Positions 838-53,400 of a stretch of 64,000 bases of DNA are shown here, one piece after another (position 1 is the first letter of the stretch; each line of letters starts with the position of its first letter). The position numbers and the translations under genes are program-made. Under the pieces are notes generated by a model, which worked only from the letters and a program-made list of their open reading frames with translations, searched no databases and had not been told where the DNA came from. The stretch spans positions 60,421,919 through 60,485,918 of the forward strand of contig OZ038385.1 of NCBI GenBank assembly GCA_964036045.1, written 5' to 3'. The DNA comes from Eutreptiella sp. 'Long Island Sound 2002' (lineage: Eukaryota > Euglenozoa > Euglenophyceae > Eutreptiales > Eutreptiaceae).

Positions 838-958
838 ATTAAAGTCAATATGTTAATTTGTAATTTTTAATATATGAAGGCGTTAATATATCAATCTCGC
901 AAATATTAAGAGGTTAAAGTCAAATTTTTGAGATTGGGCCATTTGTACCCATTTTTCC

Positions 959-2220
959 ATGCACATATGCGGACCTATAAGGGGTGTTACGTGGTATATT
1001 GTTGCACAACGGTATGGTAGAGAGGTTCCAATGTTGTGTTGGTGGGTGTCTTGGACATCCCCCCTTCCCGTTGCCCGCATCCCCCCCCCCCTCCACACCA
1101 CCATGTTCCCTTGTATAGCCCTTGTTATGCCTTTCTCTCGGGACACCCTTACCGAGCTTAACATGACGCTCGTGCGTTTGAGTGGGGCCAAGAGTTTGCG
1201 GGACCCTTTGGTCTTCCAACTCCTTGGTGAGTGGGTGGCTTCATCTCCCTCGGCCCGGGCCCGATGGTCCGAGGCCACGGTGGTTGGCTACCCCTCCCTT
1301 ATTCGCGAAAAGCAAAAGGAGGCGGTGAAGCCATATGCATCCCGCCTATTCCCGACCCCGGACCTCATCCGCCTCCTCATGGACTTAAACGTCCCGAAGC
1401 TTGGCTTCCGGCACGTGTCGGAGTACATGAGCCGCCGGGGGTCGGCCTACACGGCCGCAACGGGCCTCCCGTTCCCCCGCCCCATTTCCACCCGGGTTAC
1501 GTTCACGGACACGTGGAAGGAGTTGGTCACCCCCCATGACCTACGGCCACCCGTGTCCGTCCCGTATCCCCCCGCGAGTGGGCGCTCTTGGCCGCTACCC
1601 TCATGGGCCGGGTACGTTCAATCACGCCCATCACTAGTGGACACCATCGATTGGACAAGGCCCCTCACCTTCATTGTGCGTGGGGATGCGTACCCGTGCG
1701 CTGGTGGTAGTTGGACCCAACTCTCCATTGGGCTCCTCAACCACGGCGCACGGGGCCGCACACCCGCGTACTAGTGGGTGATAGGGATGGCCGTGTGTGG
1801 GGACAAGGACATGACGGCACTAGCAACGATATGGGCGGAGAACTTGAAGGTTTGTGGCCCATTCGTTGTTTGTTAACTTTTGCATTAATTTCTCGAGATT
1901 CATATCCAGATTTCGGTTAATTTTAACGCCGACTGAAAATTTAACTTAATATTAATCTCGAGAAATTAATGTAAATATTAACACATGGTTTTTTTGGAGG
2001 TGTTGAAGTCTATTGATGACCGCAAGGGGTTCTAGTGGGCAACACCTAGGGTGCGGGGTGTGGTAGCCATTCGGGATGACCACCCCCTAGTGCACTGCTT
2101 CATTGGCGCCTCTAGATGGCCCATAGTGGGCTCTACATATAAAGCATACAACATCAATGCACCTTTTCTTGTATGGAATGGGAAGAAACGCGCACACACA
2201 CACACACACACACAAATACA
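959..2220 (+). pseudogene. Transposase-like gene of element A, broken
   Basis: Exon 1 is open from ATG 959 to a TAG at 1772. The same frame continues (WVIGMAVCGDKDMTALATIW) to about 1860, so one nonsense codon interrupts it. An intron-like AT-rich segment (about 1865-2000) follows. A second coding stretch (about 2000-2185) then also carries an in-frame TAG at 2032 and ends NINAPFLVWNGKK before a (CA)n tract. The core RGDAYPCAGGSWTQLSIGLL, with an acidic residue and a conserved-looking following segment, resembles the start of a DDE catalytic domain. That is an impression of layout only; I cannot name the superfamily. The element's only gene, it is probably inactive. Confidence 0.5.
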
Positions 2221-2790
2221 CACACACACACAGAGACAAACAATGAGGTCGGCACCCCCCAACACACCCAACCCCTCCCACACACATCCCTCCTTGCTCC
2301 TTCCTCTCTCCTCCCGTTGCCCTTGCGCTTAAGGTTTGAGAGGGTATTCGCTTTCTTTCCACAGGTCATTTTTTTGAAAATATTGAAAATTGTTGAAGAT
2401 CGTTGAAAATTGAGCAAGGAGAAAAAGGTTACAGGTATGTGTGTGTGTGTGTGTGTGTGCATGCATGTGTGTCCATTGTGGCTAGTTTTTAGGTTGTAGA
2501 ATGCCCCAAACCAGATAAAGGGGCTAGTGCAAGTTTCATCGGCAATGCCACCCCCCCCCCCTTGGTATTGTGGTGTGTGATGTTTGGGGCTATGGGGTGT
2601 AGGGTTATGGTTCCTAGGGCTGTGGTGTGTGGGTGTGTGGGTTTGTGGGGTTGTGGTGTGTGGACCTATGGTACGTCTCGGTGTGGTTTCTAGGGCTTTG
2701 GTGTGTGGGGGTGTGATGTTTGGGACTGTGCTGTGTGGGGCTGTGGTCCCCCCCCCGGCAGTATGCAACCCCCCCCCCCCCCCCGGAAGT
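2190..2790 (+). repeat. Left arm of a large inverted repeat in element A
   Basis: Reading from (CA)n through a pyrimidine-rich stretch, a Phe/Lys-poor AT tract around 2360-2420, a (GT)n tract and a run of C, this arm matches the reverse complement of about 4035-4595 with scattered differences. Both arms hold the same order of landmarks: CA repeat, CCTTCCTCTCTCCTCCCGTT-type block, TTGAAAATTGTTGAAGATCG-type block, GT repeat, GGGGCTAG block and poly-C. No gene is apparent within it. Confidence 0.7.
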
Positions 2791-3014
2791 CTCCAGCCCA
2801 CTTCAGGTGCCTCAAATGGTGAGGTGGTTGTGCGTTATGCACTTTTTTTCACGTTAATTTTTGCGACGCTTTCGTTAATTTTTGGAAATTAATATTAACG
2901 CTCGCATCGATTCATAATTAATATATTAATTAATTTTTGGCTCGATAATATTAATTTCCAGAAATTAGTTCAGGGGGTCAAGAATTAACTTTTGGTTTTT
3001 TGTGTTTTTTTCGG

Positions 3015-3660
3015 ACCGCACAACCCCAACATCCCACAGCCCCACACTACAAACCCCAAACCCCCACAGCGCCAGTCCCCCATAGCCCCAAGCACCGCAG
3101 CCCCAAAGGGCACCGTGCCCGGCATACCATGACCCCACAGCCCAACAACCCACAGCCCCACACCCCACAGCCCCAAGCACCACAATCCAAATTGTCACAG
3201 CACGGCACACCACAGCCCCACACCGTACAACCCAACAAACCATGGCCCAACACACCACAGCACCCCAGCCCACAGCCCCATGCGCCACTGCCCCACACAG
3301 CAAACCCGCACACACAGCCCCATGCACCACAGCCCTGCACACCACAGCCCCAAACGCACCGCCTTACATCCCACAGCCCCACACCACGCAGCTCTACACC
3401 CCACGGGCCCACACCCCACAAGCCCAAGCACCACAGCCCCAAACATGCCACAGCCCCACCCTGCAGCCCAACACACCACAGCCCTACACCCCACAGGGCC
3501 ACACGCCACAGCCCACACGCCACAGCCCCACACATCACAACCCCAGAGGCCACAGCCCCACACACCCCAGGCCTGTACACTACATCGCCGCACCCCACAA
3601 CCCCACACAACCTAGCCGGACACCCCAAACGCCCACACACTTCAAGCGAACACACCAAAG
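3015..3660 (+). repeat. A/C-rich minisatellite, 10-14 bp units
   Basis: More than 600 bp of imperfect CCACAGCCCCACA-type units. All six frames show simple repetitive translations (for example Pro/His/Thr or Gly/Val/Trp), which I treat as artefacts. A related block with CACACACCACAACCCTAGAA units lies at 3840-4250. Together they form the spacer between the two inverted arms. Confidence 0.85.
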
Positions 3661-4595: not shown

Positions 4596-4608
4596 TGCGT
4601 GTGTGCAG

Positions 4609-4651
<43 letters not shown>

Positions 4652-4930: not shown

Positions 4931-4931
4931 A

Positions 4932-7608: not shown

Positions 7609-7984
7609 ATATTCCTTTGTCTACCATCTGTACGTTTCTGGCCGGAGGCGCGCTTTTGTGGCCAACGGTGTTGCACGTAAGGTTTTGAAAACGCGTAGAG
7701 CGCGCACAACGCGCACAACACGCACAAACCAAGTAACATGCACAGAACGCGTAGCACGCCGAACACACGCCTCCAGAGGCACGTGCAGAATTGAAATACC
7801 GGAACGCGCAGAACGCGTAGCACGTCGGTTTGCACACGGGCGCACATGGAGGAGGGGCCGCGTCCTCACAGTTGGGTATCGAGCCTACGCGGTTGTCCCC
7901 CAGGGTTCGCATTGGTCCCATGGGTAGGAATAGCAGAGGCTCCGCCTCCATGACCGTCTCGTTCAAGCCCCCCATTCCACCACA

Positions 7985-9266
7985 CTACTCCTCATCTTCC
8001 TCATCTTCCTCATCCTCCTCAGCCTCCTCGTCCTCCTCATCCTCCTCATCCTCCTCGTCCTCCTCATCCTCGTCATCCTCCTCATCCTTCTCGTCCTCCT
8101 CGTCCTCCTCGTCCTCTTCATCCTCCTCAGGGTCCTCCTCCCACACCTTCTCGTCCTCCTCGTCCACCACCATGTCGTGTGCGCCTTGCACACCACCATA
8201 GCCATGTCCCGGTGCAAAGCACAATACGTGGAACGCCTTTCCACAACCGGTACATTCATAACCGGTTCTTCCCCTCTTGCAAAAGTGGCACACACGCCGC
8301 AGTTGTGTCGCCACCGGCACGTGCACCTCTTGTCGGAGGGGGTGGGCAAAATACCGCCGCCGCAACACATGCCATTGCCACTCCCATATACTAGTGGTCT
8401 CTTTGCAAAGTCCCAATCGCCGGCAAGTTGCGAACGAATTCACAACCGCGTAGCGGAGCACGAACGCACGCACCGCGTGGGCCAATGTCATGTGGCGGCC
8501 AACCTGCCTCATCTGCAGGACCATCTGGTTCACACCATCGACACCGCGCGACAGTGTGCGGTACGCCGCCACCACGGGATGCACTTCGAGCCCACTTCGC
8601 CGGTGAGGTGGTCCCTTTCGGGCAAACCACACATTCGTCAACATCGGCACAACGCGGTGGGGGGTTGTGCCCGACCTTCGGATTCTTGTACACGCACAAA
8701 CTGTACTTCGAATCCGCGACATTGCAGTGCAGTGCAGTGCAGTGCAAACCGCCGTGTGCCCCTCCTGCACCAGCTCCCCGGCCCATGTCACGCCGTACGT
8801 GGACCTCTTCGTCATCACGAGGAATGCTAGCTTGTTGGCGGCCAATTCCTTTGCGAGGCCGTGGGACCCGAAAAAGGAGTCGGCACGTAGCACCGTCCCC
8901 TCGGGTAGCAATGATGCCCACAACTTCATGATGTTTTTGGCATCACGGTTTCCCGCCGCGGTGCCGTAGCCGCGTAGCGTGCCCCGTGCACCGGTGTACA
9001 AATACATGTCCGCCACATACCCCCATGTTGTGTCCACCAGGCAGTACAACTTTATCCCGGTTGGGTGCGGTTTCCGGGCAATAAACGTTTTCAAGGGGCC
9101 CGCTAGCATCCCCTTGTGGGGCACCACCGACTCATCGCCGCAGGCCCCAGCCCCCATGCACCACGATCCCGCCCATTGGCCATTGCAGTTTGGTAGTAGT
9201 GAGACCACATCGGTACGTAGCAACCGTTGCAGCAAGTAATATTGGCGACGCGTCAGCATGTTTGCC
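7985..9266 (-). pseudogene. E1 TnpA, 3' part: piggyBac-like DDD transposase core and tail
   Basis: Starts inside the catalytic domain after the E2 insertion (first residues MANMLTRRQYY). It then shows CGDESVVPHKG (first Asp), GIKLYCLVD and DMYLYTG, ADSFFGSHG (second Asp) and SRGVDGVNQM (third Asp position). A zinc-ribbon-like CHFCKRG..ECTGC..HVLCF follows and an Asp/Glu-rich tail of about 60 residues ends the frame. This order matches the DDE_Tnp_1_7 plus cysteine-rich plan of piggyBac. Between about 8650 and 8740 the frame is shifted and shifted back. The shift starts at a GCAGT repeat and ends near a C run, so the segment expected to read FKNPKVGH is garbled (YKNPKVGHN survives in another frame). 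The element cannot make an intact enzyme. Confidence 0.8.
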
Positions 9267-9655
9267 ATATTCCATTGTCTACAGAGGGGACGTTTCTGTC
9301 CGGAAGCGCTCCGCGCGGCACAATACGTGCTGCGCGTGTTGCTTCATAACGCGCAGCACGCGCAGCGCGTGTAGAACGAAAACAACAAACGCAGAACGCG
9401 CAAAACGCGCAGCACGGCGTTCTAGAGGCAGACTTAGAAGCAGACTTCCGGCACGCGCAAAACGCGTAGCACGCGTAGCACGTCACTATTGCACACGCGC
9501 ACACTTTTGGGGGGCCGCGTCCTCACAGTTTGGGTATCCAGCCTACGCGGTTGTCCCCCAGGGTTCGCACTGGTCCCATGGGTAGGGATGGCAGAGGCTT
9601 GGCGGCCATGAAGTTCACGATTCCACCACGTCCGCCCTCCACCACCTTCTCCTTC

Positions 9656-11283
9656 CTAATCTTTGTCATCCTCCATGTCCTCGTCCTCTTCCCCGTCACT
9701 CTCCTCCTCCTCCTCACTCTCTTCCTCCTCATCCTCCTCCCCCTCCTCCTCACTCTCCTCCTCCGTGTCATCCTCACTCTCCTCCCTTTCACTTCCATCC
9801 TCCTCGGCCTCGTCGCTCTCCTCCTCCACATCCGCTTCTACCACCCCGGTCACCCCATGCGCCACGGCAAAGCACCCCACATGGTACCACTTGCCGTACC
9901 CACAACAAACGTAGTGGGTCTTGCCCCGGTTGCAATGGGCGCACACCCGGCGGCCCGGCATCCGCACCGGCACGTGTATGGGCTTGGCCACTGCCGCTGT
10001 ACAAAATCGGCGCCGTATAAGGTCCCACTGCCAGTCAAACATGGTACCCGTTCGCCCCCCCCCCGAGGGACCGGCACGTCGCGTATGCGTTGACCACGGC
10101 ATACCGGAGGACAAACGCACACACCGCATGCGACCACGTCATCTGATGTCCCATCCGGCGCATCTGGAGCGCCATCTGGTTGACGCCATCCACCCCACGT
10201 GATAGCTGGCGGTAGCTGGCGACCACCGGGTTCACCTCATTCCCGCTGCGGCGATGGAGGGTCCGGCTTGTGGGAAGTGGACGTTCGTGAGCATTGGCAC
10301 TACGCGGGGCCGCTTGTGACCCACCTTTGGGTTCTTGAAGACCACCATGGCGTACCTCGCGTCGTCCACAGTGCACGTGGCGGTTTGTCCTTCACCTAGA
10401 AGCTCTCCTGCCCGGTCCACCCCGTACGTGGAGCGCTTCGGCGTCATCAAGAATGCGTGCCCCTCCGCAGCGAGGTCACGCGCTACCTCGTGCGATCCAA
10501 AAAAGGAATCCGCACAGAGGATGGTCCCGGAAGGGAGGAGACCTGCCCACATGGTCATGATCTGCTGGGCATTGTAGTTGCCCGCACTGTTGCCGAACCG
10601 CCGCAGGTGCCCGCGTCTACCCGTGTACAGGTACATGTCCACCACGTACCCACTAGTGGCATCGGCAAGGCAATAGAGCTTGATGCCGGTGGAGTGCGGC
10701 TTGCGGGCGATGAACATCCGTAGTGGGCCGGCACGTATGCCTTTGTGCGGCACCACTGACTCATCCCCACAAGCCGTGCCACCCAACCGCCAGGCACCAG
10801 CCCACTGCCCATTGCACTCCTCCAGTAGTTCAACAACGTCGGGCCGGATGTTACGGCGCAAGACGTAGTACTGCTTGCGGCTTAGCAATTGTGCCATGAA
10901 GGGGTTGTACAATAACCCGTCCCGTTCCCAGATGCCGTCTTCTTGCATGGGCCGTACCATGCCTAGTAGGAGGATGAAGGCGTTGTACCTACGGAAATGG
11001 AAGCCACTGCTACCATCGATTGGGGCAAACACTGAAATCGATAGGCCGAACCGCTAGAATCAAGTGGGACACACCTTGGTACTAGGGGGATCAAGTGGGA
11101 GAGGTTCGCCTTTCGGAGGGATGCTCGCTGTAATTCCTGGATGGGAGCCAACATGTGGTCCCACACCTCATCCTCGGTGTACCCGACTAGTTCAGTTTGG
11201 CCTGGCCGGACTCCATGCATGATATTTGCTGCACAGTCCTCCACGGGGAGTGAACCCGCCCAAAGATTCGTGGGAAATGGCAT
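9656..11283 (-). pseudogene. E2 TnpA, near full-length piggyBac-like transposase with two frameshifts
   Basis: The likely start MPFPTNLWAG (ATG 11283) is just downstream of an acceptor-like GTTGTGCAG. It leads into a segment with GYTEDEVWDH, also present in E1. From 11032 come RRYNAFILLLGM, DGIWERDGLLYNPF, CGDESVVPHKG, DMYLYTG, ADSFFGSHE and FKNPKVGHKRPRVVPM. A frameshift near 10258 precedes SRGVDGVNQMALQM (third Asp). A second frameshift, in a run of G near 10055, precedes the cysteine-rich CAHCNRG..YVCCGYG..HVGCFA. The acidic tail ends at TAG 9656-9658. Both shifts lie near repeats or homopolymers, so assembly error is possible. The Asp triad is intact. It acts, or acted, in the nucleus on TIRs like those at 9271 and 15497. 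Confidence 0.8.
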
Positions 11284-11884
11284 TTTTGAAGAGCGGTGTG
11301 TCTGCACAACACGGAACACGGACTTTTGGGCTCCAGAGGCAGAACCGGAGGCAACGCAGAGAACGCGCAATACGCGCAGAAAGCGCCACACGCAGTTCAG
11401 AGGCACAGTCAGAGGCAACACGCAGCACACGTAGCACATGGGGGGGGGGGGGTGGTTTGAGCCTCAATTCCCCTACCACATAGCAATCTGCAGCGGAGGG
11501 GGGGGGTTTCAACCTCGATTCCCTGACCACAGAGCAATAGGCAACAGGGGTGGTATCTTTTTTTGCGGGACACCACCAGTTCGCTTGTGCTCGGCGCCGG
11601 GCACTACATGTTCGATCGCCATAATACTCCGTTATCGTACAGCCAAGAAACCGGGTATAGCTGCCACATATTACGACACCACCAGTCCGGCGCCCGTTGA
11701 GAAAAAGCGCCTGTCTGCGCTGAAACTTCCCGAGGGGGGACCCGCAAAGCGGGCTGCGAACTCTGCCGCCCCCGGGACTCGTCGGGGTCCGGCCATCCCG
11801 GACTCGGTTCCCCAAGCGGGGAGAAAAACCCCTGGGACCCCTCCCCCTCCCACCCCTGCTCCCCCTCCTAGCCCTCCCAACCCT
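11284..11884. other. E2 intergenic region between ORF-B and TnpA
   Basis: No gene is supported. A short degenerate tandem duplication lies at about 11440-11540 (two copies around ATTGCTATGTGGT and poly-C runs). A G/C-rich stretch at 11690-11880 is open for about 70 codons on the minus strand but low in complexity. Any 5' exon of TnpA upstream of 11283 would be here. The private motif appears at 11350-11430. Confidence 0.5.
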
Positions 11885-15497: not shown

Positions 15498-15501
15498 ATA
15501 T

Positions 15502-19831: not shown

Positions 19832-19887
19832 ATATGTGAGGGGAGGGGAGAGCAGCAGCCCCTGGGAGTCAACTGCCATTACCACCA

Positions 19888-38934: not shown

Positions 38935-39879
38935 CCAATGATCATTGGGGATGATGACGGCCACATGGTCCTGAGGGGCCCTCCTGGCCCCTGCTGGCTT
39001 GATTTCGGCTCCTTCCACAATCATCGGCGCGATCGCAGTGGTGCATGCAATAGATGATCCACCGAGGCTTGTAGCCGTCCTTGTAGGACCAATAGCACGC
39101 GCGACGAAATGCATAGCACGAGCATGACAATGACACCGATAGCGCGCGCTGCAGCATTACCTTTTCTGCTTTCTCCTTAGACTCCTCTGCTTTCTTCCGT
39201 CTCTTCTCCTCCTCTTCTGAATCCTTCTCCTTCTTCCTCCTCTTCTCTTCCTCTTCCTTCTCCTTCTTCTTCCTCTTTTCCTCCTCTTCCTTCTCCTTCT
39301 TCTTTGCTTCGTCCTCTTTCTTCTTGTTCTGTTCCGTTGGACGTTGGACTCTCTGTGCCGCTGCTGCCATCAACTGCTGGTCGTCGACGGCGGTCTTCTG
39401 CGCAAGGACCTTGCCTGGCGGGTGTGGGGGCTTAGCGGTGTGGGAGGCGGAGATGGCTGGTGGTAGGTGGCTGGTGGCTGGTGGCTCCTCGGTACGCTTC
39501 TTCTTCTGCCTTGGGGCTGTCACGGGTTCCGTCTCCGGCATGGCAAAGGCGTCGGCCCAGTCCACCTCCAGCTCCTCCATCTGCCGCTTAGCCCGGGCCA
39601 GCACCGGGGAGGGGCCTTGCTCCTTCCGTCCGTCAAGCCACTCGGCCGCATGCTTGGACTGCCCGGCAATGTCCGCGGGCACGCTGATCATCAACGGCCC
39701 TCTGCGGGATCCCAGGCATAGGAGCTGCTCGAAGCTGCCCACCTACGTGAAAACAGGACAGACGGTGGGGCCGTAGCGCGCGCAAACGGTCAAACGCGCG
39801 TGCTACAGCAAATGAAGCGCGCGCAACAATGTCGGCAGCGCGCGCAATGGCAAACATAGCGCGTACCTGTTGTTGTTGC

Positions 39880-39913
<34 letters not shown>

Positions 39914-41253: not shown

Positions 41254-41463
41254 GGCAAGAGGGTTACATTAAAGTACCCCTGTTCCAGCAGTAATACAAA
41301 AAGGAAAACGCAGTTACAAAAAAATAGAAAACAAAAAAAACGGACAGAAAAGCAACAAATCTCTGTGTCTGTCAATGCATTCGCAATTGGAACCACATTT
41401 GAAGTGCGTAGTCATAGCACGCTACTTCTGATTGTATATCGCGATTTCAAGGGTTCCGGCGCT

Positions 41464-41773
41464 ACATAACAAGGAAAGGTATCAAACAAAAATGGTGACC
41501 AAGTAAGGTTGGCACTCCTTTGTAGTCGTTGTCATGTTGTAGCTTGGAGTAGCCACTTTTTGAGGTGGTTTGTTGTGCCACTCCAGGACCTCCAAGGGAC
41601 TTTGTGTGGGCCTTCGTGTGAGCCTTCCTTGGTCAGCGGTGCCTTTTGGTGTTACAAAGACCTCTTAAAGACAAAAAGAACACCCCATATCACACCTTAC
41701 CATAAGAGTACATCTTACCACAAGAGTGGTGGGGTAGAAAAGTGGCACCCTAGATTACCAACTCTAGAGTGCT
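41464..41773. other. Unassigned DNA between F2 and E3
   Basis: 310 bp with no recognisable gene or terminal repeat. A short direct repeat (CATATCACACCTTACCATAA / ACATCTTACCACAA) is seen at about 41690-41725. It is the left flank of the E3 insertion; the right flank resumes at 51915. Confidence 0.5.
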
Positions 41774-42159
41774 ATATTCCTTTGGCTACAATACGTACAT
41801 TCACTACGCATCCACCCCTAAAAACCTGTTGGGAACGTACGTTGCCAACGCATGGAACGCACTGTTGGGAACGTGTGCTTTTCACAGGGGGAACAGGGGT
41901 GGATGCATATTGGCGTGTGGATGCAAAACCCGGATGCACGTATTCTACGTTTCCTACGTTCCCAACGTTTTGTACGTTTTCCTGCGCTTTCCACGTTCAT
42001 TACGTTTTCTAGGGGGGGACGCAAAAAGGCGGGTGGATGCAAATCCCGGATGCACGTTTTCTACACGTTTTCTACGTATCGTACGTTTTCTACGCATCGA
42101 ACCCTGTTTTCTGACCCACGAGCAACGTTGCACTGCACTTCAGTTGTCACGGTGACGGT

Positions 42160-42920
42160 CTACACTCCATGGTAATTGGCAAAACACCGGGTGTGCAGTG
42201 GCACACGGCAAGCTGCGCAGACCCAGGCAACACGCCCCGTTTTACAATATACACACACGCCCCGCTTCACGGTCGCCCTGATGCAATGCACCTCTTTTTT
42301 GGCAAACCGTTCCTCCGGAAAAAAATCATCGAGCAACATGCGTTGGAAATCCCAAAGGGAAGTCTCTTCTGGCACCAGGCACAGATCCTTGCACGTGCTA
42401 ATAGTGTTCACTACTCCGTACCGAAGCACAAAAGCACGCAGTGCTCTAGACCACGTTTGAAACCTTTGGATCTCCCGAAAATGCAAGGCTAGGGCATTGG
42501 CTTGGTCTACGCCGGCCGCTAGAGAACGGTAGGCACCCACCAACGGAGGTAGCCAATGGCCTCTGGGATGCTGCCAGAGCGCTGGGTCTACACTACAATT
42601 TGTATACATGGGCACCACGCGCGCAGCCTTGCCACCTACTTTCGGGTTCTTGAAACAATGCAAGGCAAACGGGAGGTCACAGGCCACCGCACACTCCTCC
42701 TCCCCTTCACGCAAATTCGCACCCAGCAACGGTTCCAGCATGTGTAGGAAGACCTCACTCATGGTTGACGTCATGGGTAGGGTGCTGCTCCCTGCGCTGA
42801 ACTTCTGGGGGATGTGCAACGCAGCATCAGTCCCAGCTAGAGGTCCAGTGTTGTAGCTGCGTGCCCGGGTGGCAACCGTAGGTGCAGGCATTGGTGTGGG
42901 CCCTGGTAAAGTAAGTGTGG
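42160..42920 (-). pseudogene. E3 TnpA remnant: C-terminal part only
   Basis: Reads FALHCFKNPKVGGKAARVVP, AGVDQANALALHFREIQRF (third Asp), AFVLRYGVVNTISTCKDLCL, then the cysteine-rich CVYCKTG..WVCAACR..HTRCFA, and stops at TAG 42160-42162. The first two catalytic Asp blocks (ESVVPHKG, ADSFFGSH) are absent anywhere in E3; the segment upstream (TGPLAGTDAALHIPQKF) does not match them. A deletion has removed the catalytic core, so E3 depends on other copies. Confidence 0.75.
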
Positions 42921-43466
42921 ATGCAATTTGACGGGTGGATGCGAACCGGGGATGCACGTTTCCTACGTCTTAATGGATACGTAACCAACGGGGATGCATT
43001 TTGACGGGTGGATGCAAAAGGCGGATGCACGTTTTCTACGTTTTCTACGTTTCGAACGTTTTGGGCTCTGTTTCATTGTAATTCACACTGTTCATGGGCA
43101 GGCAAGCATGCGCAGCAGTCAGCAACACAGCCAATCTTCATTCTGGAATCGCCAAAAATCAGTGTACGCTTAGTATCACCATCGTTCACCATCGTTCACC
43201 ACCACCATATCACACTGCAGTGATCAACACAGCCATTTTTCATTATGGAATCGCCAAAAAGTAGTGTACCGTGACCGGTTGGCACTGAACTTTGCTGGGC
43301 GCGCCAGGCGTGCACCGCAGGCATGCGTGATGCAACAGGCTTGAACAGAAATGATCATTGATTCTACAAAAATTATAGCATACGTCGGCGGTTGGCACTT
43401 GTGTATGAGGCAACACATGAACACGTGAACGTAACTTGCGGCGCAGTGCTAAAATAAAAAAAATAT

Positions 43467-44006
43467 TCCTTTGTCTACGACGTAGATGACGAAATGGGCG
43501 CTTCTAGGGGTCGGGAAAAAAAACCTTTTTTTTACAACGCTTCTGGGGGTTTTTGAGGTAGCCCGACGCACTCGCGCATGAGTTTTTATGCGGTTCAACC
43601 ACTTTCAAGGAGAAAAGCACTTTGCATGTTGCCTCCAGCTTTGCTTCCACCGTTCTTAGCGTCGTATAGGGGTCGTTTGTTGGCCGCGTTTTCTACGTTC
43701 CGCTTTTGTGCTTCCGGTGGTGCTTCTGGAAGCGAGTCCCTCGTTTTCCGTGTTGTCCGTGTTATCCGCGTTCCGGTTTTCAGCTTCTGGTTGTGCTTCT
43801 GGAAGCGTTTTCCGCGTTATCCGCGTTCCGGTTTTCTGCTTCTGGTCGTGCTTCTGGAAGCGTTTTGTGCGTTTTCCGCGGTATCCGCGTTCCGGAGCGT
43901 TACGGAGTGTTATTGTCGTTGTGCGCGTTCTCCTAGCTTACGGGGATAACGTACGGAGCGGAGGCGGGAGCGGAGGCCCAAAAATGGCGCTTCTGTAGAC
44001 AAAGGA
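43467..44006. mobile_element. Non-autonomous piggyBac-like element, copy 2 (540 bp)
   Basis: About 90 percent or more identical by eye to 37257-37805, with the same TIR (TCCTTTGTCTAC) and ATAT at 43463-43466 and 44007-44010. It has one fewer GCTTCTGG/CGTTATCC block. It lies in E3 between the TnpA remnant and ORF-B, in a different flanking context from copy 1, which confirms the boundaries. Confidence 0.9.
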
Positions 44007-44269
44007 ATATAGCATACGACTCTGCCGCAGGCATCACTGTCGAGAAAACACAAACAGAGAAGGTCGGCACACGTGTCCCATTAGGATAATACTCTGGTCC
44101 AGTCTACGGGGAACCATCGGCAGTGGCCTGCACGGAAACAGGGCAAAAAACGTTAAAAACGGGGTACTGGGCGGGTGGATGCAAATCGGGGATGCATGCA
44201 TTGTACGTGTTGGACGCGTCGAAGTGCACTGGTTGGCAGTGGTAGGGCAGAGACATACCAAATGGCCAA

Positions 44270-46585
44270 CCGAAGCACCAAATGCAGTCGGTGAGGGAAT
44301 AGCGCCCTCCGGATTCAACAACTCATCCTGCGTGAGCAGCGGTGCCCCCAGGGCCGGTGGTGGCAAGTAGACCTGTGTCAAAAACGGTGAAAAACGCAAC
44401 GGGGATGCAAAATGGTGCGTGGATGCAAAACCCGGATGCATGTAATAAAACACGTTCCCAACGTCGGTTACGTTACCGACGTCTGCGGGGATGCAAAACG
44501 GCGGCTGGATGCAAAAGGCGGATGCACGTGTTGAAAACGTCGGGAACGTTCATTACGTGTTTCACGTCGCGGGGATGCAGAATGGCGTGTGGATGCAAAA
44601 CGCGGATGCACGATTGCTACGTTTTCTACGCATTGTGCGCATGTCATGCAATGGAAGGCACTGCGCACACCACCACTTTGCCGTCCACGGTTGCCGATGG
44701 GGTGGATCGCTCGTCCTCGGCCTTGGCGTCTTCCTTGGCCTTGTGTTCCTCCTCGGCCTTGCGTTCCTCCTCGGCCTTGCGTTCCGCCTCGGCCTTGCGT
44801 TCCGCCTCGGCCTTGCGTTCCTCCTCGGCCTTGCGTTCCGCCTCGGCCTTACGTTGCTCCTCGGCCTTGCGTTGCTCCTCGGCCTTCCGTTGCTCCTCGG
44901 CCTTGCCTTGCTCCTCGGCCTTGCGTTGCTCCTCGGCCTTCCGTTGCTCCTCAGCCTTGCCTTGCTCCTCGGCCTTGCGTTGCTCCTCGGCCTTCCGTTG
45001 CTCCTCGGCCTTGCGCTGCTCCTCGGCCTTGCGTTCATCCTCGGATCAAGCCGAAGAGGAACTCGTAGCGCTCGAGGTGGAGGACGATGAAGAGGACGTG
45101 TCGTACTTCCCCTTCTTCTTTTCGCGCTTCTTCTGCTTTTTGGCCCTCTTCTTTTCCCGCGTGCTCCTCCTTCGCTGAGCCGACGGCACTAGGCAACACA
45201 CCGGATCCTTGCGCGCTGGCACACGTGGGGCAGTTTGCGATCTTGACGAGAAACAGCACTGTGGAAACAGGTGCAGGTGGATGCAAACGTGTGGATGCAT
45301 TCGGTGGATGCACGTCATGGACGTTTCGTGCGCAGCGGTATAAGCGGGGATGCAAAATGGCGTGTGGATGCAAAACCCGGATGCATGTTCTAAACGTATT
45401 ATACGTCTCGTGCGCATGTGAAGTACCTGCATAGGCATCAGCGTCTCCAAAGGCGGCGTTTGTCTTGTGCATGTTCTGCAGCAGCATTCTTGCCGTCGGG
45501 AACGCCTTGCAGTGGTCTGCCCGCATCCCAAACAACTCCATCAACTGGTCCTGTGCCCCGCCAGTCACCAAAGTCGTGCAGAGCCCAATTTCCCGACGTT
45601 TGAATCCTGCTGTCTGCGGATCCAGCCCATCGTGGCACCTCTTGTAATGCGCCTTGAGCCTTGCTGGGGTGATACTAGTCTTCTTGATCAGCTGCTCGCC
45701 ACACGCCGCCATCTTCTCCACGTTCCCTTGCCGCTGCATGCGCTCGTTGCTCTGATCGCGTGGGCTTTGTGGTGATGCTCTTTGCGGTGCCTGCCAGTTG
45801 AATGCGCACCTTCGGACCTTTTCCTTTTGCCTTCTCTGGGTTCTCGATGGCCTTGTCCTTGTTCCTTCCCTTGTCGTCTGTGTCCTTCTTCGGCTTGGAG
45901 AGAGACTGCGCCAAAGGAACGTCATCGTCAGGGTCGTCCACAAGTTCGTCATCGTTGTCCCCAGCAGCGGCATCCCCAACCGTCCCATGGGCGAAAAGGG
46001 CAGCGTCGTCGTCATCTTCGTCGTCAGCGTCCTCTTCCTCCTCGTCCTGCTCATCCTCCTCTTCCTCGTCTTCCACGCTTGGTGGATCGTCGTTTTTGTA
46101 AAGTGCCCACAACTTGCTAATGCTTGAATACTTGTAAGTCTTCTCCCCACAATTTCTCGTCGTGCCTGCCATAATCCTGTCGCGATTCTCCGTCACACTG
46201 TATTATATGATTTCGGTTTTGTCAACACCAGTTCGTTCTTGGCAGGCCTGTTCTTGTCCACCCATCCGCAGATAAAGCCGTTGCGGCTACGAGGCTTCTG
46301 CAAAAGGTGGATGCAGAATGGCGTGTGGATGCAAATAGTGGATGCACGTTTTGTACGCAACGAACTCACTGTTGTCAAGACGTAGAAACGGTGGATGCAA
46401 AAGGGCGGGTGGATGCAAAAGGCGGATGCACGTTGGCAACGTTGTGTGCGCGCAAAAACAGATACCGAGAGAACAACAGTGTGACCGGGCTTCACAATTG
46501 AGGGATCCGCTGGGAACAAGGAGCAGTCGTCTTGGCGCCAGTCTGGGGGAATGGGCGGCACCCATACGGCCATTTGAGGAGGCAT
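44270..46585 (-). pseudogene. E3 ORF-B, divergent homologue of E1/E2 ORF-B
   Basis: Start ATG 46585 (MPPQMAVWVPPIPPDW), matching the PAPLxPxxHxQW start of E1/E2. The second exon about 46295-46205 has FICGWVDKNRPAKNELVLTK (compare GWHAGWVNQKKKG), and next come YSSISKLWALYKND and a Glu/Asp-rich run (46110-45960). Then come LSKPKKDTDDKGRNKDKA, LKAHYKRCHDGLDPQTAGFK with RADHCKAFPTARMLLQNM, an intron with GGATGCA copies, a basic REKKRAKKQKKREKKKGK patch and a Ser run. An in-frame TGA (45048-45046) is followed by a (KAEE[QE]R)n coiled-coil repeat to about 44700. A short exon VYLPPPALGAPLLTQDELL (about 44370-44275) may be the proline-rich part. No known domain. Confidence 0.6.
44715..45045 (-). repeat. 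18-bp coding minisatellite in E3 ORF-B
   Basis: About eighteen tandem units of CTCCTCGGCCTTGCGTTG (plus strand) coding on the minus strand for six-residue KAEEQR-type repeats with E/Q, R/G and A/E variants. It predicts a single long charged helix. E1 and E2 ORF-B have acidic runs but not this repeat, so it expanded within the E3 lineage. Confidence 0.85.
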
Positions 46586-47266
46586 GGAACAAAGGGGCTG
46601 GTACGAGAGACAAGGGAGCCCGTCCAGACGTTGCCAACGTCTGCGGGGATGCAAAACGGCGTGTGGATGCAAAACGCGGATGCATGATACGAACGTGAAA
46701 TACGTGCGGAACGCTCCTGGGGTGGATGCAAAATTGAAAAATACAAAAAGCATCAAAATGGGTCCAAATTGAGTTGCAACCATCAAATGCATTATTGTGG
46801 ACACGCACATTACCTTCACCTTCCTAGAAAGCAATGGCATGCAGGCAAAACAAAAAAACGTCCAGATGGATGCAAGGTGGATGCGCGACCTACCCCTGCG
46901 TGCGCGCAAGGTTGCATTTTTTCCATAGTGCGCGCAAATTTTCAAAAATACGACCTTTATAGCGCGCCTATTGCGCGCGCTCTACCGCGCTATATTGTCC
47001 CGTTTTTCAAATTTTTCAAAACCGGAAAATGTTTCAAAACCATGCTTTTTCCAGTGTCCTGCGTTTCTCAAAAACCCCTTGCTTTTCAAAAACATTCCCT
47101 GTTGCTCATTCAACCCAAGACACATGCAAAAACACCGTCTGAAAGGTCTGAAAAGTGTGCAACAGTACAGGTCCTCACGGACGAAAACAGTGTAGCGCGC
47201 GCAACATATTTACAGCGCGCGCTAGGAGCCTTATGGCGCGCGCTATACCAGGTATAGCGCGCGCTC

Positions 47267-50200
47267 TCATTCAGTGATATCCTTAATGGTTTGGACCACC
47301 ACTTCGGCCTCCCACTCCTTCTCCCATTCGGGTCTGTGGTCTTCTGCCCCAGTGGCAGCTGGGGCTGCATCCCCTTCTTTGTGGTCTTCTGCCCCAGTGG
47401 CAGCTGGGGCTGCATCCCCTTCTTCTTGTGGGCTTGGGTCGCCTTCTGGGGTTGCTCCTTCTGGTGCCTCTTCTTCTTTCGGGGCTGCTCCTTCTCCTTC
47501 TTGTGGCGTGGCCGCTGGTGCCTCTTCTTCTTGTGGTGGGGCTGGTGCGTCGTCTTCTTGTGCTGCTGCTGCTGCTGGGGCTGGTGCTGGTGCTGCAGCT
47601 TCGGCAGGTCCCTTGTCTCCTTGTGGGGGGGCTGGTGGCTGGGCTGGTGGGTCTCCTTGGGGCTTCTTCTTCTTTGGGGTTGGTGGCTTGGACGGGGACA
47701 TCCTCATGGTCTTTGGGTCGGGGCAGAGGTCCTCAATCTCATCGGCCTCGTACGTCTCCCACCACGACTGCCACTTGCCCAACTCCTCATACGCTTTGCT
47801 TTTGGCGGAGAACACCTGGCAGCTGGGCATGAACTCCGACCAGTCGTCCTCTTCCTCCTCCTCCTCCCCTTGTTGGCTGGGGCTCCACTGATCGTTGGGG
47901 ATGATGACGGCCACGTGGTCCTGAGGGGCCCTCCTGGCGCCTGCTGGCTTGATTTCGGCTCCCTCCACAATCATCGGCGCGATCGCAGTGGTGCAGTAGA
48001 TGATCCACCGAGGCTTGTAGCCGTCTTTGTAGGACCAATCTCGGCGCTGCATGAGCTCATCTCTTGCCTCCTTGTCCGCGTCGGCTCTGCTCTGCTGCTT
48101 GGCCTTGGGAGCCGTACTGGGTGGGGTGGAACCGCACGGACCTCCTTGTTCTTGTGGCTGGTCTGGGACTGGGACAGGCTGCTTCGGTGCTGGCTTTGAT
48201 GCGAGCTGCGGCTGGGGTGCCTGCTGCGGTGCCGTCTTGCTTGCCTGGAAAGAGTAGCGCGGAGGCATAGCACATGCATAGCACGCGCAATACGGAACAT
48301 AGCACGCGCGACGAGATGCATAGCACGTGCAATGACGACGATAGCGCGCGCTGCATTACCTTTTCTGCTTTCTCCTCCTCTGCTTTCTTCCGTCTCTTCT
48401 CCTCCTCTTCCTTCTCCTTCTTCTCCCTCTCCTTCTTCTTCCTCTTTTCCTCCTCATCCTTCTCCTTCTTCTTCCTCTTTTCGTCCTCTTCCTTCTTCTT
48501 CTTCTTTGCTTCGTCCTCTTTCTTCTTGGCCTATTCCGCCTGACGTTGGACTCTGTGTGCCGCCTGTGCCATCAGCTGCTGGTCGGCAGTCTTCTGGGCA
48601 AGGACCTTTCCAGGCGGGTGGGGGGCTTAGCAGTGTGGGAGGCGGAGATGGCTGGTGGTAGGTGGCTGGTGGCTGCTGGCTCCTCGGTACGCTTCTTCTT
48701 GGGCCTTGGGACTGTCACGGATTCCGTCTCCGGCACGGCAAAGGCGCCGGCCCAGTCCACCTCCAGCTCCTCCAGCTGCCGCTTAGCCCGGGCCAGCACC
48801 GGGGAGGGGCCTTGCTCCTTCCGTCCGTCAAGCCACTCGGCCGCATGCTTGGACTGCCCGGCAATGTCCGCGGGCACGCTGATCATCAACGGCCCTCTGC
48901 GGGATCCCAGGCACAGAACCTGCTCGAAGCTGCCCACCTACGTGACAATGGGACAGAAGGTAGGGCCGTAGCCACGCAAACAATCAAGTTGCGCGTGCTA
49001 CAACAAATGAAGCGCGCGCAACAATGTCGAAAGCGCGCGCAATGGCAAACATAGCGCGTACCTGTGGCTGTGCCAGTTGTTGTTGTTGTTGCTGCTGTTG
49101 CTGGGCCATCTGCACCCGCTGCTGCTGCTGGTTGCAATTGCCCTTGCGGCACTGGCTCCTCTTTTGGCTGACCCCCGCATCAAACTGGCACCCGCACTTC
49201 TCACCGAGGCGCACTCGTTCTTGAAGGCCATTGCCCCCGCGTCGGTCGCGTTGATGAAGCTCGGTGGGTCCTTGTTGAAGTAGAAGTGGTGGACGGTCTT
49301 TGCGGTGCCACCCGGAGGCGTGTGGGTCCGAACGTGACCCCACCCATAACTTGCCCAGCACGAGAACAGCAGCTCGTACTCCTCCACCTTGCAGTGTCTA
49401 CAGGCAGCTTGTCCTTCTTGGGTTGGCACGGAGGGGTTCAACACGTTGTGGAGACTGCACCAGGTGCCAGTAATGCTCTCGTCATACCAGCAGGGTTTCA
49501 CGGCTCCGTCTGGGATCTTGGCAATGGCCGTGGCCCTTTGGCGCCAGAACTTGTAGAAGGCCACCTCGAAGAGGTAGGCCGGTGTCACGTCCTTCAGCCA
49601 TGCCCAGTTGGGCCCTTGGGCGCAGATGGTGCTGTTTTGGTTGGGCCAGATTCGGTTCTTGAAGTCGCTGCTGAAGGCGAAGCCCTGACGTGGCCCGGGT
49701 GGGGGAGACTGAAACTGTGCTTGCACTTGGGGTTGCTGCTGTCTTGGTTGGACTTGCTGCTGCTGCTGCTGCTGCTGCTGTTCTGGGCTGCCGACTTGCG
49801 GGGCCGCAGCCTGCACTTGCTGCTGCTGCAATTGCTGCTGCTGCTGCACTGGCAGTGGGCCGAAGAGCACTTGTTGCACTTGGCCCACTGGAAGACTGCC
49901 GCGCACTGGGGAGCCCAAGGTGGGCTACCCACCGGGGAACAGCATGGGAGACAGCTGCTGTGAGGCACCTCGTAACGGGGACTGCGGCGCGGGCCACAGA
50001 GGCTGAGTTGGGGAGAACTGGGTCAGCTGCTGGGACAGCGTCTGCGGAAAACAGGACAAAGCACGCGCAACCAGGACGTGCGTAGTGCGCACAACGAGAC
50101 GGGTAGCACGCACAACAAGAGCGTAGCACGCGCAACGGAAACAGTAGTGCGCACGGCAAGTACCTGTGGCTGCATGCTCCACGGCGTCGTCGACGGCTGC

Positions 50201-50322
50201 TGCAGTCCCGGTTGTACAGCTGCATGTGGCGGTGGTGGCGGCGCCGCACCTGCTCCTGTGGCCCCTGCAGCAGTTGTTGGCGGTGCTGCAGGAGGCGGAT
50301 ACCCCCAGCCCACGGGCTGCAT
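47267..50322 (-). pseudogene. Fa gene of F3, most complete copy
   Basis: Start MQPVGWGYPPPAAPPT (ATG 50322), end TGA 47267. Exon 1 Pro/Ala-rich; GT-AG intron about 50163-50048 (donor CAGGTACTTG); exon 2 TLSQQLTQFSPTQPL with an in-frame TAG at about 49930; Gln-rich part; FSSDFKNRIWPNQNSTICAQ; WLKDVTPAYLFEVAFYKFW; a possible metal-binding CRHCKVEEYELLFSCWASYG; KTVHHFYFNKDPPSFINATD; intron about 49060-48940; SVPADIAGQSKHAAEW; Lys/Glu run with a frameshift near 48620; intron 48359-48245 (GTAATG...TTTCCAG, 115 nt, five motif copies); WSYKDGYKPRWIIYC, VAVIIPNDQWSPSQQ, WSEFMPSCQVFSAKSKAYEE; Ala/Pro/Glu tail with a duplicated EGDAAPAATGAEDH unit. Role unknown. Confidence 0.65.
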
Positions 50323-50597
50323 GGGCAAGAGGGTTACATTAAAGTACCCCTGTTCCAGCAGTAACACAAAAAGGAAAATGCAGTAGCAAAAAAATCGAAA
50401 GCACCAAAACAAACGGACGAAAAGGAACAAATCAATGCATTCCAAACGCTTTAAGTGCGTAGTCATAGCACGCTACTTCCGACTATATATCGCGATTTCA
50501 AGGGTTCCGGCGCTTGAAAACAGCATAGCGCGCGCGATAGTGGACATTGCGCGCACTAGATAACATGTAGCGCGCGCTAAAAAACAAATAGCGCGCG

Positions 50598-51704
50598 CTA
50601 CCACAGTTCCTCATCCGCAAAATATGCCCGAACCTCGTCAGCCAATTTTTGTGCATTGCACAGGTTGCTTCTGGAGTTGCCATTCCACCTTGGTACTTCA
50701 AAGTACAGGAACAGACGCTCATTAACCTGCCTGAGTTGCACTGGACTTGCACCACGTCATGTAAGTGAACAGACTACCTGCCATCCAATGTGTAGTGACA
50801 CCCGACAACCGACGCAGCCAAGGGCTATCCCCACCGCAGAAAATCCTACAGCGTCTGGATGCACCCCGGATGGGAAGCACACCGGTGTCAAGGGCACTCT
50901 GCAAAAAAGCAAGATTGTTAGCCCAGACCTGGGACAACACAGAGGTGGACTTCTCACCACAAAGGGCGACGTTAACAGTCCGGTGGTAGGACAACGTCCT
51001 TGCCAAGTGACCATGGTTGGCAAAGGAAATGGACATCTGGCACCACGATTCCCCCCCACAAGGCAACCCATCCCTCCTCACAATGATCCACAGCTCTCCT
51101 TGGCACTCCCTGGGGTATTGGAGGTTAGAAACAATGGAATCAAAGGAAAATATATAGTCAAAAAAGTGCTGCAGGGGCCACTGCGAAAAGACCGTGACGC
51201 CATCTGTGTGCACGGCAACCTCTAAATGCTGCCTACTTGCAAGCTGGTTCCATTCTGTGGCGAAACTAGCATAAGAGGGGAGAGAAAAAAGGTGTGTGGG
51301 GACCTTACTTCTCGTCCAAGTAATCAAATCTTTGTACCTGAGGAAAATAGCGTGCGCAACATGGGGACGTAGCGCGCGCAGAAGTCAACGAAGCGCGTGC
51401 TATGAGCGGAAGTGCGCGCAATGTCACATGCAAAGCGCGCGCAATAATACCTTCTTCTTGGAATCTTCAGGAGCAGGACCAAGTCCACCACCGACAGGGG
51501 TGTGACGGCGTTGGCAGCCTCGGTCCTGCGACGCTTCTTCTCTGCTTCAGACACGGGGACCCTTTTTTCCAACCTGGCCCACAAAGACCGTTGGACGGCA
51601 GACCCTGAGCAAAAAAACTCAACTAGGTCCGCCAAAAGGTCCTCGTTCTTCCACAAGGACCACCCATAGTGGGGGCCCAAAATGTTTGCAATCTTCCCTG
51701 ACAT
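50598..51704 (-). pseudogene. Fb gene of F3, internally deleted
   Basis: Exon 1 from ATG 51704 (MSGKIANILGPHYGWSLWKN) to 51451. The intron 51450-51338 (GTATTA...TTTTCCTCAG, 113 nt) is filled with GCGCGCGC motifs. Exon 2 carries YKDLITWTRSKVPTHLFSLP, TEWNQLASRQHLEV, IVRRDGLPCGGESWCQM and RRLSGVTTHWMAGSLFTYMT. After KSSATQAG the frame stops (50722), and a different frame supplies LRQVNERLFLYFEVPRWNG..AYFADEELW with a TAG belonging to a TAGCGCGCGCTA copy. Compared with the inverted copy (30469-30868) about 390 bp are missing here. The two-exon structure is well supported by three copies. Confidence 0.7.
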
Positions 51705-51969
51705 TAACAGCGTCAGATGCGGTGCCGGAAGAATCTGAAACTTTAGAAAAATAGGCGTTTTTGCCCTGCTTATTAGGACATGGGGTTACAAACCCAAGAC
51801 CCCGAGCCATAGCGCGCGCTATGCTGCGCGCTATAGTTTTGTAGTGCGCACTGAGCCATCGCGCGGCAATACCCTGTAGCGCGCACACAGGGACGTATTC
51901 AGCCAAAGGAATATCCTACAATAAAAAGTGTTTGGGTGCATAAGGAAAGGATAGCTTGGAAAGCTTGTA

Positions 51970-52220
51970 TGTAACTGCTAAGATCTGTTCACATGGACAC
52001 GTACGTGTTAAAAGCCCGACACGTACGTGTTGAAATCCCAACTCGTACGCACTGATTTACCAAACTGTACGCACTGCGTACGCGTTTGGCGCAAAATCGT
52101 ACGCAGCGCGTGCGCGTTTGGTACCCAGTGCGTACGGTGTGGAAAATCAGTGCGTACGAGTTGAGATTTCAACGCGTACGTGTCCATGTGAACAAAAAAG
52201 GCCACATCTTAGCAGTTACA
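51970..52220. mobile_element. MITE C, 251 bp, TIR about 40 bp, TA duplication
   Basis: Left TGTAACTGCTAAGATCTG continuing to CATGGACACGTACGTGTT; right is its inverted partner, ending AGCAGTTACA. TA lies at 51968-51969 and 52221-52222. The interior has about six copies of a CGTACGCACTG / ACGTACGTGTT motif, the same private motif as at 21195-21345. No coding. TA duplication and size fit a Tc1/mariner-like MITE, but the TIR was not matched to a family. Confidence 0.85.
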
Positions 52221-52285
52221 TAGGTTGATGTTAAAGCCCCATGAGATATTATGCAGAGATATTGAAGTGCAATAGTTACCAATAT

Positions 52286-53400
52286 TCCTTTATCTACGGT
52301 TGCGTCATTCCGTGACCAGTCGGAATGCAACCCCTATTTTGGTTCTTTCAAAATACTACTTTTCACGTGCAACCGCCTGTTCTTGGGCTTTAAAAATTGT
52401 GCAACCGCCTTATGCAACCGGTACCCTATTTTGCAACCGCTTCATGCAACCCCTTGTGCAACCCATGGGTATTTTTGTGCAACCACCTTATGCAACCCCC
52501 ATGCAACCTGCAACCCCTAAGCGAAAATCACTGAATCGGGCAATGTTCTCTTAGACCAACCCATGGTGTGCCAAGAAACAATTCTTCACATGCAGATGTA
52601 CACCACAACCCTTGCAGACCTAGCAGGTTCGCTTCCCACACACTTTGCAGGTGCCACGGGTAGGAGACTTCACTGGGCAATGGATCTCTTGAGGTGGGAC
52701 ATACATAGGGGGCATCACGGAATGCATGAATCCAAGCTGAAAATCCCACAAAGATGTGTTTTCGGGGATCAAATCAATGCTTTTGCATGCAACAAACGAA
52801 TTAGAGATGGCGTATCTCACGACAAAAGCCCTGAGTGCCTTCGACCATGAGCGGAAACGACCTACTTCTCTATGCTGAAGCGCTAATTGACAATGCGACA
52901 ATAGGGGAGAACCTGTAAAACAAAAGGGGAGTCCTTCTTCAGCGTGTTCTTGGATACCACTGCCGTGTAGTGGTCCGGCATGCGGTATGCCTTCGGTACA
53001 GGCAGTCCCGGATCGTCATCGTCGGCGGACATGGGTGGAGGAGAAGAAAGCTAACATTGCAAAAGGGGGACAACAAGAGTGTGCAACCCTCATGTGCAAC
53101 CGCCACAGAATTTGCAACCTGCAGGAACCGGAAATGATGGAATGCAACCGCTTTATGACACCGCTTTTTTTAGTCTGCAACCTGCAAATTTTGGTCTTTG
53201 GGGGTCCCCATGGGTTGCAAGGGGGCGGAAAACACCTTCGGTACGGGGTTGCAAAAATCAAAAAGTGGTTTTTTGATGGAATTAGACAAAACGGACGTTT
53301 CCACGAGGTGGTTGAGGTCCAAAAACCTAGGGTTCCCAACTTTTCAAAAGTTTTTATTTTTTGGCGAAGGGGTTGCACATATGGGGCTGTAGATAAAGGA
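52286..53400 (-). mobile_element. E4, deletion derivative of a piggyBac-like element, 1.1 kb
   Basis: Termini TCCTTTATCTACGGTTGC and GTAGATAAAGGA, with ATAT at 52282-52285 and 53401-53404. It retains the last 370 bp of a TnpA gene plus ends filled with GCAACC (about fifteen copies at 52325-52515, more at 53085-53260 and 53375). The motif sits directly beside the TIR as its complement GGTTGC. The only gene is the TnpA remnant. Confidence 0.85.
52553..52901 (-). pseudogene. E4 TnpA remnant: C-terminal cysteine-rich domain
   Basis: Reads REVGRFRSWSKALRAFVVRY and LIPENTSLWDFQLGFMHSVM, then CKVCGKRTC, an in-frame TAG, VCKGCGVHLHVKNCFLAHHG and a TAA stop (52553-52555). The TAG falls where E1 and E2 have Tyr and E3 has Trp. 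The cysteine pattern of the zinc ribbon is otherwise kept. There is no catalytic core. Confidence 0.75.

Follow-up and report, generated by a model that had tools for sequence, protein, structure and literature searches.

The window analysed here is a stretch of 64,000 nucleotides (C8:60,421,919-60,485,918; contig OZ038385.1) in the 2,280,300,865-base genome of Eutreptiella sp. 'Long Island Sound 2002', and nested transposons are abundant over its initial 53 kb. Several transposon families in it contain arrays of short words that are nearly private to each family. The words lie in non-coding DNA, predominantly in one orientation, recur across the genome, differ in unit number between copies, and are retained in introns of two related elements, E1 and E2. 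The arrays may be target sites of element-encoded proteins that work like the VANC proteins of the Arabidopsis VANDAL transposons, serving family-specific self-recognition and anti-silencing, a reading to which we assign a probability of about 0.45.

Word arrays and the elements that carry them

The elements and arrays are listed below in window coordinates; MITE stands for miniature inverted-repeat transposable element.

7609..15501, minus strand: E1, piggyBac-like, recognised from its ends, flanks and Pfam DDE_Tnp_1_7; genes on the minus strand
Introns, leader and spacers of 7609..15501: the E1 words AGAACGCG/GCAGAACGCG and CCAGAGGC, located with a word matrix
15502..19835, minus strand: E2, of E1's group, with words as in E1
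41774..51914, minus strand: E3, with the variant end ATATTCCTTTGGCT, with a MITE and F-type DNA nested inside; extent deduced from the positions of its two ends
Introns of E3 and 41.9-43.1 kb: GGATGC arrays of E3
52282..53404, unstranded: E4, 1.1 kb, E-type ends, 20 GCAACC words, 16 of them in one orientation; no gene recognised
37253..37809, unstranded: MITE with E-type ends and CGTTATCCGCG and CTTCTGGAAGC repeats, without a recognised gene
43463..44010, unstranded: second copy of the 37253 MITE, within E3
21488..23473, minus strand: D, portion of a very abundant element, with CGCGATAAC arrays at 22297-22439 and 23189-23219
24507..27560 (limits approximate), minus strand: F1, with GCGCGC ends (CCCTGTGTGCGCGC)
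26932-27066, 25902-26026 and 25231-25337: F1 introns packed with TTGYGCGYGCTA-like units, at a spacing of 20-21 bp in both introns measured
38900..41470 (limits approximate), minus strand: F2, second F copy
46894..50620 (limits approximate), minus strand: F3, third F copy, within E3
29340..29640, unstranded: G, array of TTGGCGCGC/GGCGCGCCAA units enclosed by inverted repeats carrying F-type words

The 16-base end ATATTCCTTTGTCTAC occurs 12 times in the window at three or fewer mismatches, against 0.25 expected. Ends of this type bound E1 (7609-15501), E3, E4 (52282-53404) and the two MITEs (37253-37809 and 43463-44010); E2 has a single such end, at 19835, and its other side adjoins E1. ATAT flanks both ends in all five E-group elements checked, and an empty site near 36.76 kb, in the neighbouring tandem copy by the 37253 MITE, fits a 4-bp ATAT duplication. 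E1 to E4 and both MITEs have one end sequence in common, yet they differ in their words. An earlier note on this DNA had spoken of unrelated transposon families, which is right only in part, because E1 to E4 and the MITEs share this end. E1 to E3 carry a second gene, ORF-B, whose predicted products are homologous. The empty site belongs to a 497-bp sequence present in two nearly identical tandem copies at 36314-37256, adjoining the MITE.

In the window, exact matches on both strands were counted and compared with the mean of 60 dinucleotide shuffles (in brackets). The counts were 11 for GCAGAACGCG (0.12), 19 for CCAGAGGC (3.1), 14 for GGATGCAAAA (0.25), 14 for CGCGATAAC (0.10), 6 for TAGCGCGCGCTA (0), 3 for TTGGCGCGCCAA (0.02), 4 for ACGCGTACGC (0.02), 5 for TACGAAAGGG (0.07), 6 for TTAATTTTTGG (0.08) and 2 for GAGATTAATATTAA (0). 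The excess is weak for GGTTACAC (6 against 1.8, largest shuffle 5), and the 76 matches of GCAACC, against a mean of 61.6, equal its largest shuffle (76). Bare GCAACC is not private; its signal is the density in E4, 20 per 1.12 kb. For the words of region A, of 24.3 kb and of 31 kb, the evidence consists of these counts. Region A (2184-4990), whose word is TTAATTTTTGG, consists of a long, imperfect inverted repeat and includes CCACAGCC and GTGCGTGC repeats. Single occurrences of CCAGAGGC lie outside E1 and E2 at 3543, 33318 and 42559, and the long words are rare or absent in the retroelement-like region of 32.3-35.8 kb and in 54.5-64 kb. The claim that at least ten motifs are each private to one family is confirmed in part: the words of E1, E2 and E3 are non-coding, one-sided and rare in other families, and bare GCAACC is not private. 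An unbiased 8-mer scan was insensitive, flagging 5 of 13 tiles (7001 to 19001), several of them through coding repeats.

The words avoid coding DNA, and the coding length exceeds the non-coding length in each of E1, E2 and E3. Binomial tests were made with words that had already been picked from this sequence and with approximate limits for the transposase coding regions. In them, AGAACGCG occurs 14 times in 2.87 kb of non-coding and 0 times in 5.03 kb of coding DNA of E1 (p 7e-7), and 5 times in 2.07 kb against 0 in 2.27 kb in E2 (p 0.025); GGATGC occurs 41 times in 2.07 kb against 3 in 2.50 kb in E3 (p 2e-11). The ratio of the two orientations is 19:0 in E1 and E2 together, 40:1 in E3, 16:4 in E4 and 12:2 in D. 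Introns 3, 4, 5, 7 and 8 of the E1 ORF-B bear words, and introns 1, 2 and 6 are without them; the four introns of the E3 ORF-B hold 6, 6, 9 and 2 GCATCC words. In F1, four stretches taken as coding (1.5 kb) have no word of their own, and the F word is densely packed in all five F intron pieces inspected, three from F1 and two from F2. Dense arrays are also held by the gene-less E4 and MITEs.

Six elements were checked for a core word near their termini. E1, E2, E3, E4 and one of the two MITEs have such a word no more than 50 bp from one or both ends, and the F ends bear GCGCGC words. Within 80 bp, no core word was found at the left end of E1, the right end of E3, the right end of that MITE and both ends of the other. 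The statement that the word touches the terminal inverted repeat is right in part.

Distances between successive words were taken at 41890-53180, 22290-22460, 25231-27066, 29340-29640 and 21217-21340 and are descriptive, with no significance attached. They are mostly 18 and 13 bp in E3; 12, 13, 18 and 31 bp in D; mostly 11-13, 18-21 and 30-33 bp, also 7 and 42 bp, in E4; 20-21 bp where measured in F; 20-22 and 42-46 bp, once 59 bp, in G; 22 and 44 bp in the 21.2-kb array; and 9 and 53-73 bp in E1. Recurrent distances would point to a common binding geometry on which different elements converged. The words of different families stand at similar distances: D, E3 and E4 have 12-13, 18-19 and about 31 bp (or 13 + 18) in common, and in F, G and the 21.2-kb array the distances are near 21 and 42 bp; 31 bp is close to three helix turns.

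The whole 2.28-Gb genome was searched with paired or triple words, with the identical pattern reversed as the control. The E1/E2 pattern gave 69 + 62 = 131 matches against 2 + 0 reversed, and no reversed match (0 + 0) was obtained for the E3 pattern (105 + 81 = 186), the D pair (12,089 + 12,195 = 24,284) or the F pattern (27 + 33 = 60). From the E1/E2 matches, 28 loci were drawn, namely the initial 8 of the list and one in five of the 100 places listed; as two places appeared twice, they represent 26 distinct places of 131, and an E-type ORF-B and/or transposase is present at all 26 (tblastn E <= 1e-8). E3 DNA aligns at all 10 E3-word places examined, which were chosen, not random, and are mostly solitary matches; five of them align only to the stretch 44322-44793. 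Words are present in some introns of all six tallied genome copies of E1 (L012, L039-L042 and L044), where L012 was itself fetched by word and L043 was excluded for length. The E1 word is absent from 31 kb of E3 loci, and the E3 word has a single occurrence in 200 kb of E1, E2 and L009 loci. A relative of D, L045, is 87-91% identical to parts of 21488-23473 and contains four arrays, spaced by about 2 kb, where its long reading frames border on each other. Some stop-to-stop frames extend briefly into the arrays, and the long frames gave no transposase match in Pfam.

ORF-B and the persistence of the words

The coding regions of the E group are as follows; the ORF-B exon structures are predicted gene models derived from sequence alone.

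7986..11286, minus strand: E1 transposase, in two coding pieces that match DDE_Tnp_1_7 and overlap in part, assigned to 9659-11286 and 7986-9285
11885..15109, minus strand: E1 ORF-B, nine exons, 15109-14980, 14857-14763, 14671-14585, 14426-13440, 13322-13188, 13031-12675, 12552-12466, 12311-12219 and 12010-11885
Minus strand: E2 ORF-B, seven exons, 19247-19118, 19042-18948, 18857-18771, 18602-17658, 17497-17369, 17190-16828 and 16646-16461, with two in-frame stops
44104..46585, minus strand: E3 ORF-B, five exons, 46585-46466, 46297-45427, 45258-44646, 44372-44259 and 44127-44104, with the frame broken in the window copy

The E1 transposase matches Pfam DDE_Tnp_1_7 with E 1e-16 and 4e-18, and weakly matches the transposase of PDB 6x67 (E 0.0047). 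The E3 transposase piece itself gave no match in the Pfam scan, and is 46% identical over 169 residues to the genome protein P0212, a DDE_Tnp_1_7 match. E1 has apparently inserted within the E2 transposase gene, as judged by eye. At 9267, also by eye, a similar end likewise meets a transposase frame near the matching codon, as at 15501-15833, as though a single site had received two insertions. Short jgi or lgn contigs account for 6 of the 120 transposase relatives listed (141 found), with 40-54% identity; a search of viral contigs found no relatives.

The ORF-B products of E1 and E2 are colinear, and their E3 counterpart stands at the equivalent position. In single-sequence comparison the match of this counterpart is weak (E 0.015 and 0.003); profile-profile comparison gives a probability of 98% and E 1.6e-13 over 78 columns at 31% identity. 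On this profile match, the ORF-Bs of E1, E2 and E3 are homologous while the words of E1/E2 and E3 differ. E2-type proteins are 45-48% identical to the core of the E1 ORF-B. For the large E1 ORF-B exon, 122 matches were scored from 18,839 first-look candidates in the genome; 30 of the 122 have one score (674 bits) and 89 are without an internal stop by our count, which indicates that this exon spread recently in intact form. The borders of the models are GT..AG except at the acceptor of E1 intron 3, which is ATG in the window copy (14427-14440). In six other copies this acceptor is CAG in four, CAA in one and unreadable in one, so splicing of the window copy is probably impaired.

Persistence of the words was examined by comparing the alignment scores of E1 and E2 with those of shuffles. 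Homologous exons lie 6.3 to 18 z units above the shuffles. The word-free introns 1 and 2 give z of 0.6 and −0.3 (1.0 and −0.2 in an earlier run), and the word-bearing introns 3, 4 and 5 give 5.4, 4.0 and 6.7 (6.0, 3.5 and 7.5 in the earlier run). By these scores, the introns without words are unalignable, and similarity is retained in the word-bearing ones. Percent identity after gapped alignment was dropped as a measure, since even exons were inseparable from shuffles by it (0.60-0.67 against 0.60-0.64), whereas the score z separates them. In an all-against-all comparison of 20 intron or leader pieces of E1, E2 and E3, word-bearing pieces of E1 and E2 are alike both inside each element and across the two (z 1.6 to 17, in most cases >3), and the word-bearing pieces of E3 are mostly alike among themselves (z 6 to 28). 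Word-free pieces are mostly without likeness; the exceptions include E1 intron 1 with E2 intron 6 (5.6), E1 intron 6 with E2 intron 4 (4.6) and E1 intron 1 with E3 intron 4 (4.3).

Copies differ by gain and loss of 9-bp units. In 36 of 37 selected proteins, reading continues into E1 intron 4 and reveals roughly one to three units of 9 bases; the DNA of L039 has one unit more than the window copy, and L012 has an additional repeat in intron 8. A third lineage, L009, whose ORF-B is 30% and whose transposase is 52-53% identical, matches DDE_Tnp_1_7 with its transposase and contains GCGTTCTGC, without GCCTCTGG, in its gaps. Because L009 was found through the word, it shows the occurrence of the word in a distant lineage and not its conservation. 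A palindromic second motif was considered and dropped, as perfect 3-bp arms around CTGG were found in 5 of 17 cases in E1, in 1 of 3 in E3, and in none of those in E2 (14), the MITEs (1), E4 (1) and L009 (15).

Candidate functions of the arrays

The non-coding location, single orientation, regular spacing, gain and loss of units, and retained similarity of the word-bearing E1/E2 introns fit a family-specific protein-binding site. The earlier proposal of a protein-binding site that has spread through the introns and spacers of its element is consistent with this anatomy, and ORF-B is a plausible candidate for the binder. In the reading that we favour, each array would be a cluster of sites for a sequence-specific DNA-binding protein that the family itself encodes; ORF-B, encoded beside the transposase, would be the best candidate among the E elements. 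Such a protein would recognise its own family through many weak sites simultaneously and coat the non-coding DNA of every copy, gene-less MITEs included. It would hold the coated DNA accessible for transcription and transposition, acting as VANC does at VANDALs. The sites would multiply through tandem duplication of short units, the exons would be spared by coding constraint, and the words would diverge between families along with the protein. We infer the binding by ORF-B, the opening or un-silencing of chromatin by that binding, and a like action in D and F.

Several results weigh against this reading. Privacy is incomplete: AGAACGCG has three occurrences in the pair of MITEs and two in L045, a D locus, and CGCGATAAC clusters are present, perhaps as D insertions, in the E loci L009, L026, L030 and L036. 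No companion protein was identified for D, no convincing domain was found in the F frames scanned, and ORF-B gave neither a relevant Pfam match nor a significant fold match. The words do not simply track the divergence of ORF-B, as GCGTTCTGC is common to E1, E2 and L009 despite the 30% identity of the L009 ORF-B. In the E2 subfamily (17 sequences, namely the window and 16 of 20 loci, with L009, L012, L021 and L025 removed by the length filter), the differences per site are 0.054 in words, 0.063 at other intron sites and 0.050 in exons. These copies decay nearly neutrally, so that constraint is arguable only between source lineages.

The strongest rival, which we consider somewhat unlikely, is that the arrays are sites of the transposase or ORF-B for the transposition reaction itself and that the intron copies are a by-product of spread by tandem duplication. 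The words near at least one end of E1, E2, E3, E4, one of the two MITEs and F would suit this role, as would the retention of arrays by gene-less MITEs; however, many word copies lie in introns and spacers distant from the ends, and several ends have no word within 80 bp. The dense arrays of the gene-less E4 and MITEs fit the anti-silencing and transposition readings alike and oppose a pure role in splicing. It is improbable that the arrays are neutral, as slippage repeats accumulating in the non-coding parts of transposons and spreading with the family. The gain and loss of units among copies, the near-neutral decay of word sites in the E2 subfamily and the other simple repeats in the window would be expected in that case, whereas the one-sided orientation and recurrent spacings would not, nor would the loss of similarity from word-free E1/E2 introns and its preservation in word-bearing ones, also between non-homologous introns.

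We give still less weight to the words being signals for intron splicing or expression. The E1/E2 word often forms the acceptor (CGCGTTCTGCAG), and several word-bearing E1/E2 introns terminate in the word or a variant while word-free introns do not; however, words are also present in leaders, spacers, the gene-less E4 and MITEs, introns 2 and 3 of E3 end in CCACAG and GACACAG instead of the E3 word, and a separate signal would be required for each family. Lastly, the word-bearing introns could be introners, that is, mobile introns copied within and between elements, as the approximately 45 bp shared by E1 introns 4, 7 and 8 at the 3' end (by eye) might suggest. This is very improbable, given that among the element introns compared likeness was confined to parts of some E1/E2 introns and never ran from end to end, and that arrays also lie outside introns.

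Known systems and other features of the window

The earlier note knew of no described system of this kind; Arabidopsis VANDAL/VANC has such an anatomy. VANC21 and VANC6 are reported to recognise short motifs in the introns, intergenic and terminal non-coding DNA of VANDALs, in one orientation and at high density (Hosaka et al. 2017, PMC5735166). VANC21 binds YAGTATTAY, and VANC6 targets carry AGTTGTCC or AGTTGTAC (PMC5735166). Related VANDAL families are described as differing in motif, with motifs changing via tandem repeat formation (PMC5735166; PMC10398659). The elements of the window resemble this system (8-9 bp motif) in the family-specific short word, repeated many times in one orientation and chiefly within intronic, intergenic and terminal non-coding DNA, in tandem gain and loss, in related families with different words, and in an additional element-encoded protein besides the transposase. 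VANDALs are Mutator-like, whereas the elements here are piggyBac-like (E) or unclassified (D, F), and several families of one genome are involved at once, D with 24,284 paired matches. The VANC domains DUF1985 and DUF287 were absent from a Pfam scan at E <= 1 of the spliced E1 ORF-B and of P0121 and P0127. As ORF-B shows no VANC domain, the claim is that it would work like VANC, not that it is a VANC.

Compared with other systems, E1 is like piggyBac in its DDE_Tnp_1_7 transposase and the match to PDB 6x67. It differs in the target duplication, which is TTAA in piggyBac and ATAT here, in the second gene ORF-B and in the array-bearing introns. Ac and En/Spm have multiple short element-specific subterminal repeats bound by element proteins; unlike those, many sites here are internal, in introns and spacers. 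Fungal transposons reportedly encode a TET/JBP dioxygenase (PMC12730594), another route for an element to act on methylation. The likeness to introners, as described by Gozashti et al. 2022 (PMC9860276), lies in related intron sequence, which in some cases includes splice sites; the short-word arrays here differ in that they also lie outside introns and are without end-to-end intron similarity.

In the literature consulted, sequence-specific anti-silencing by a transposon protein is described for Arabidopsis VANDALs only, and in the open-access literature searched (titles and abstract openings, with few subscription papers) no such arrays were recognised outside VANDALs. It is a doubtful, though more novel, proposition that several DNA transposon families of one genome outside Arabidopsis each evolved VANC-like self-recognition on their own, every companion binder having its own word, and that it is the main strategy of the hugely amplified D. 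If the arrays here act as VANC targets do, private word arrays would be a general strategy of transposon self-recognition, one that piggyBac-like and other elements evolved too. The E lineages, whose ORF-Bs are homologous and whose words differ, would then lend themselves to studying the joint change of a DNA-binding protein and its target. New relative to VANDALs are the several families per genome, the piggyBac-like setting with a companion protein without a recognised fold, and the abundance of D.

Gag-like retroelement frames lie at 62862-63998, and the gag-like protein at 63.6 kb is reminiscent of dinoflagellate elements. A dinoflagellate host was considered for this reason and rejected, as the 21-base spliced leader of dinoflagellates has no exact match genome-wide. 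A long inverted repeat at 56892-62399, with arms of 281 and 129 nt that are 81% and 71% alike and about 5 kb apart, is possibly another element.

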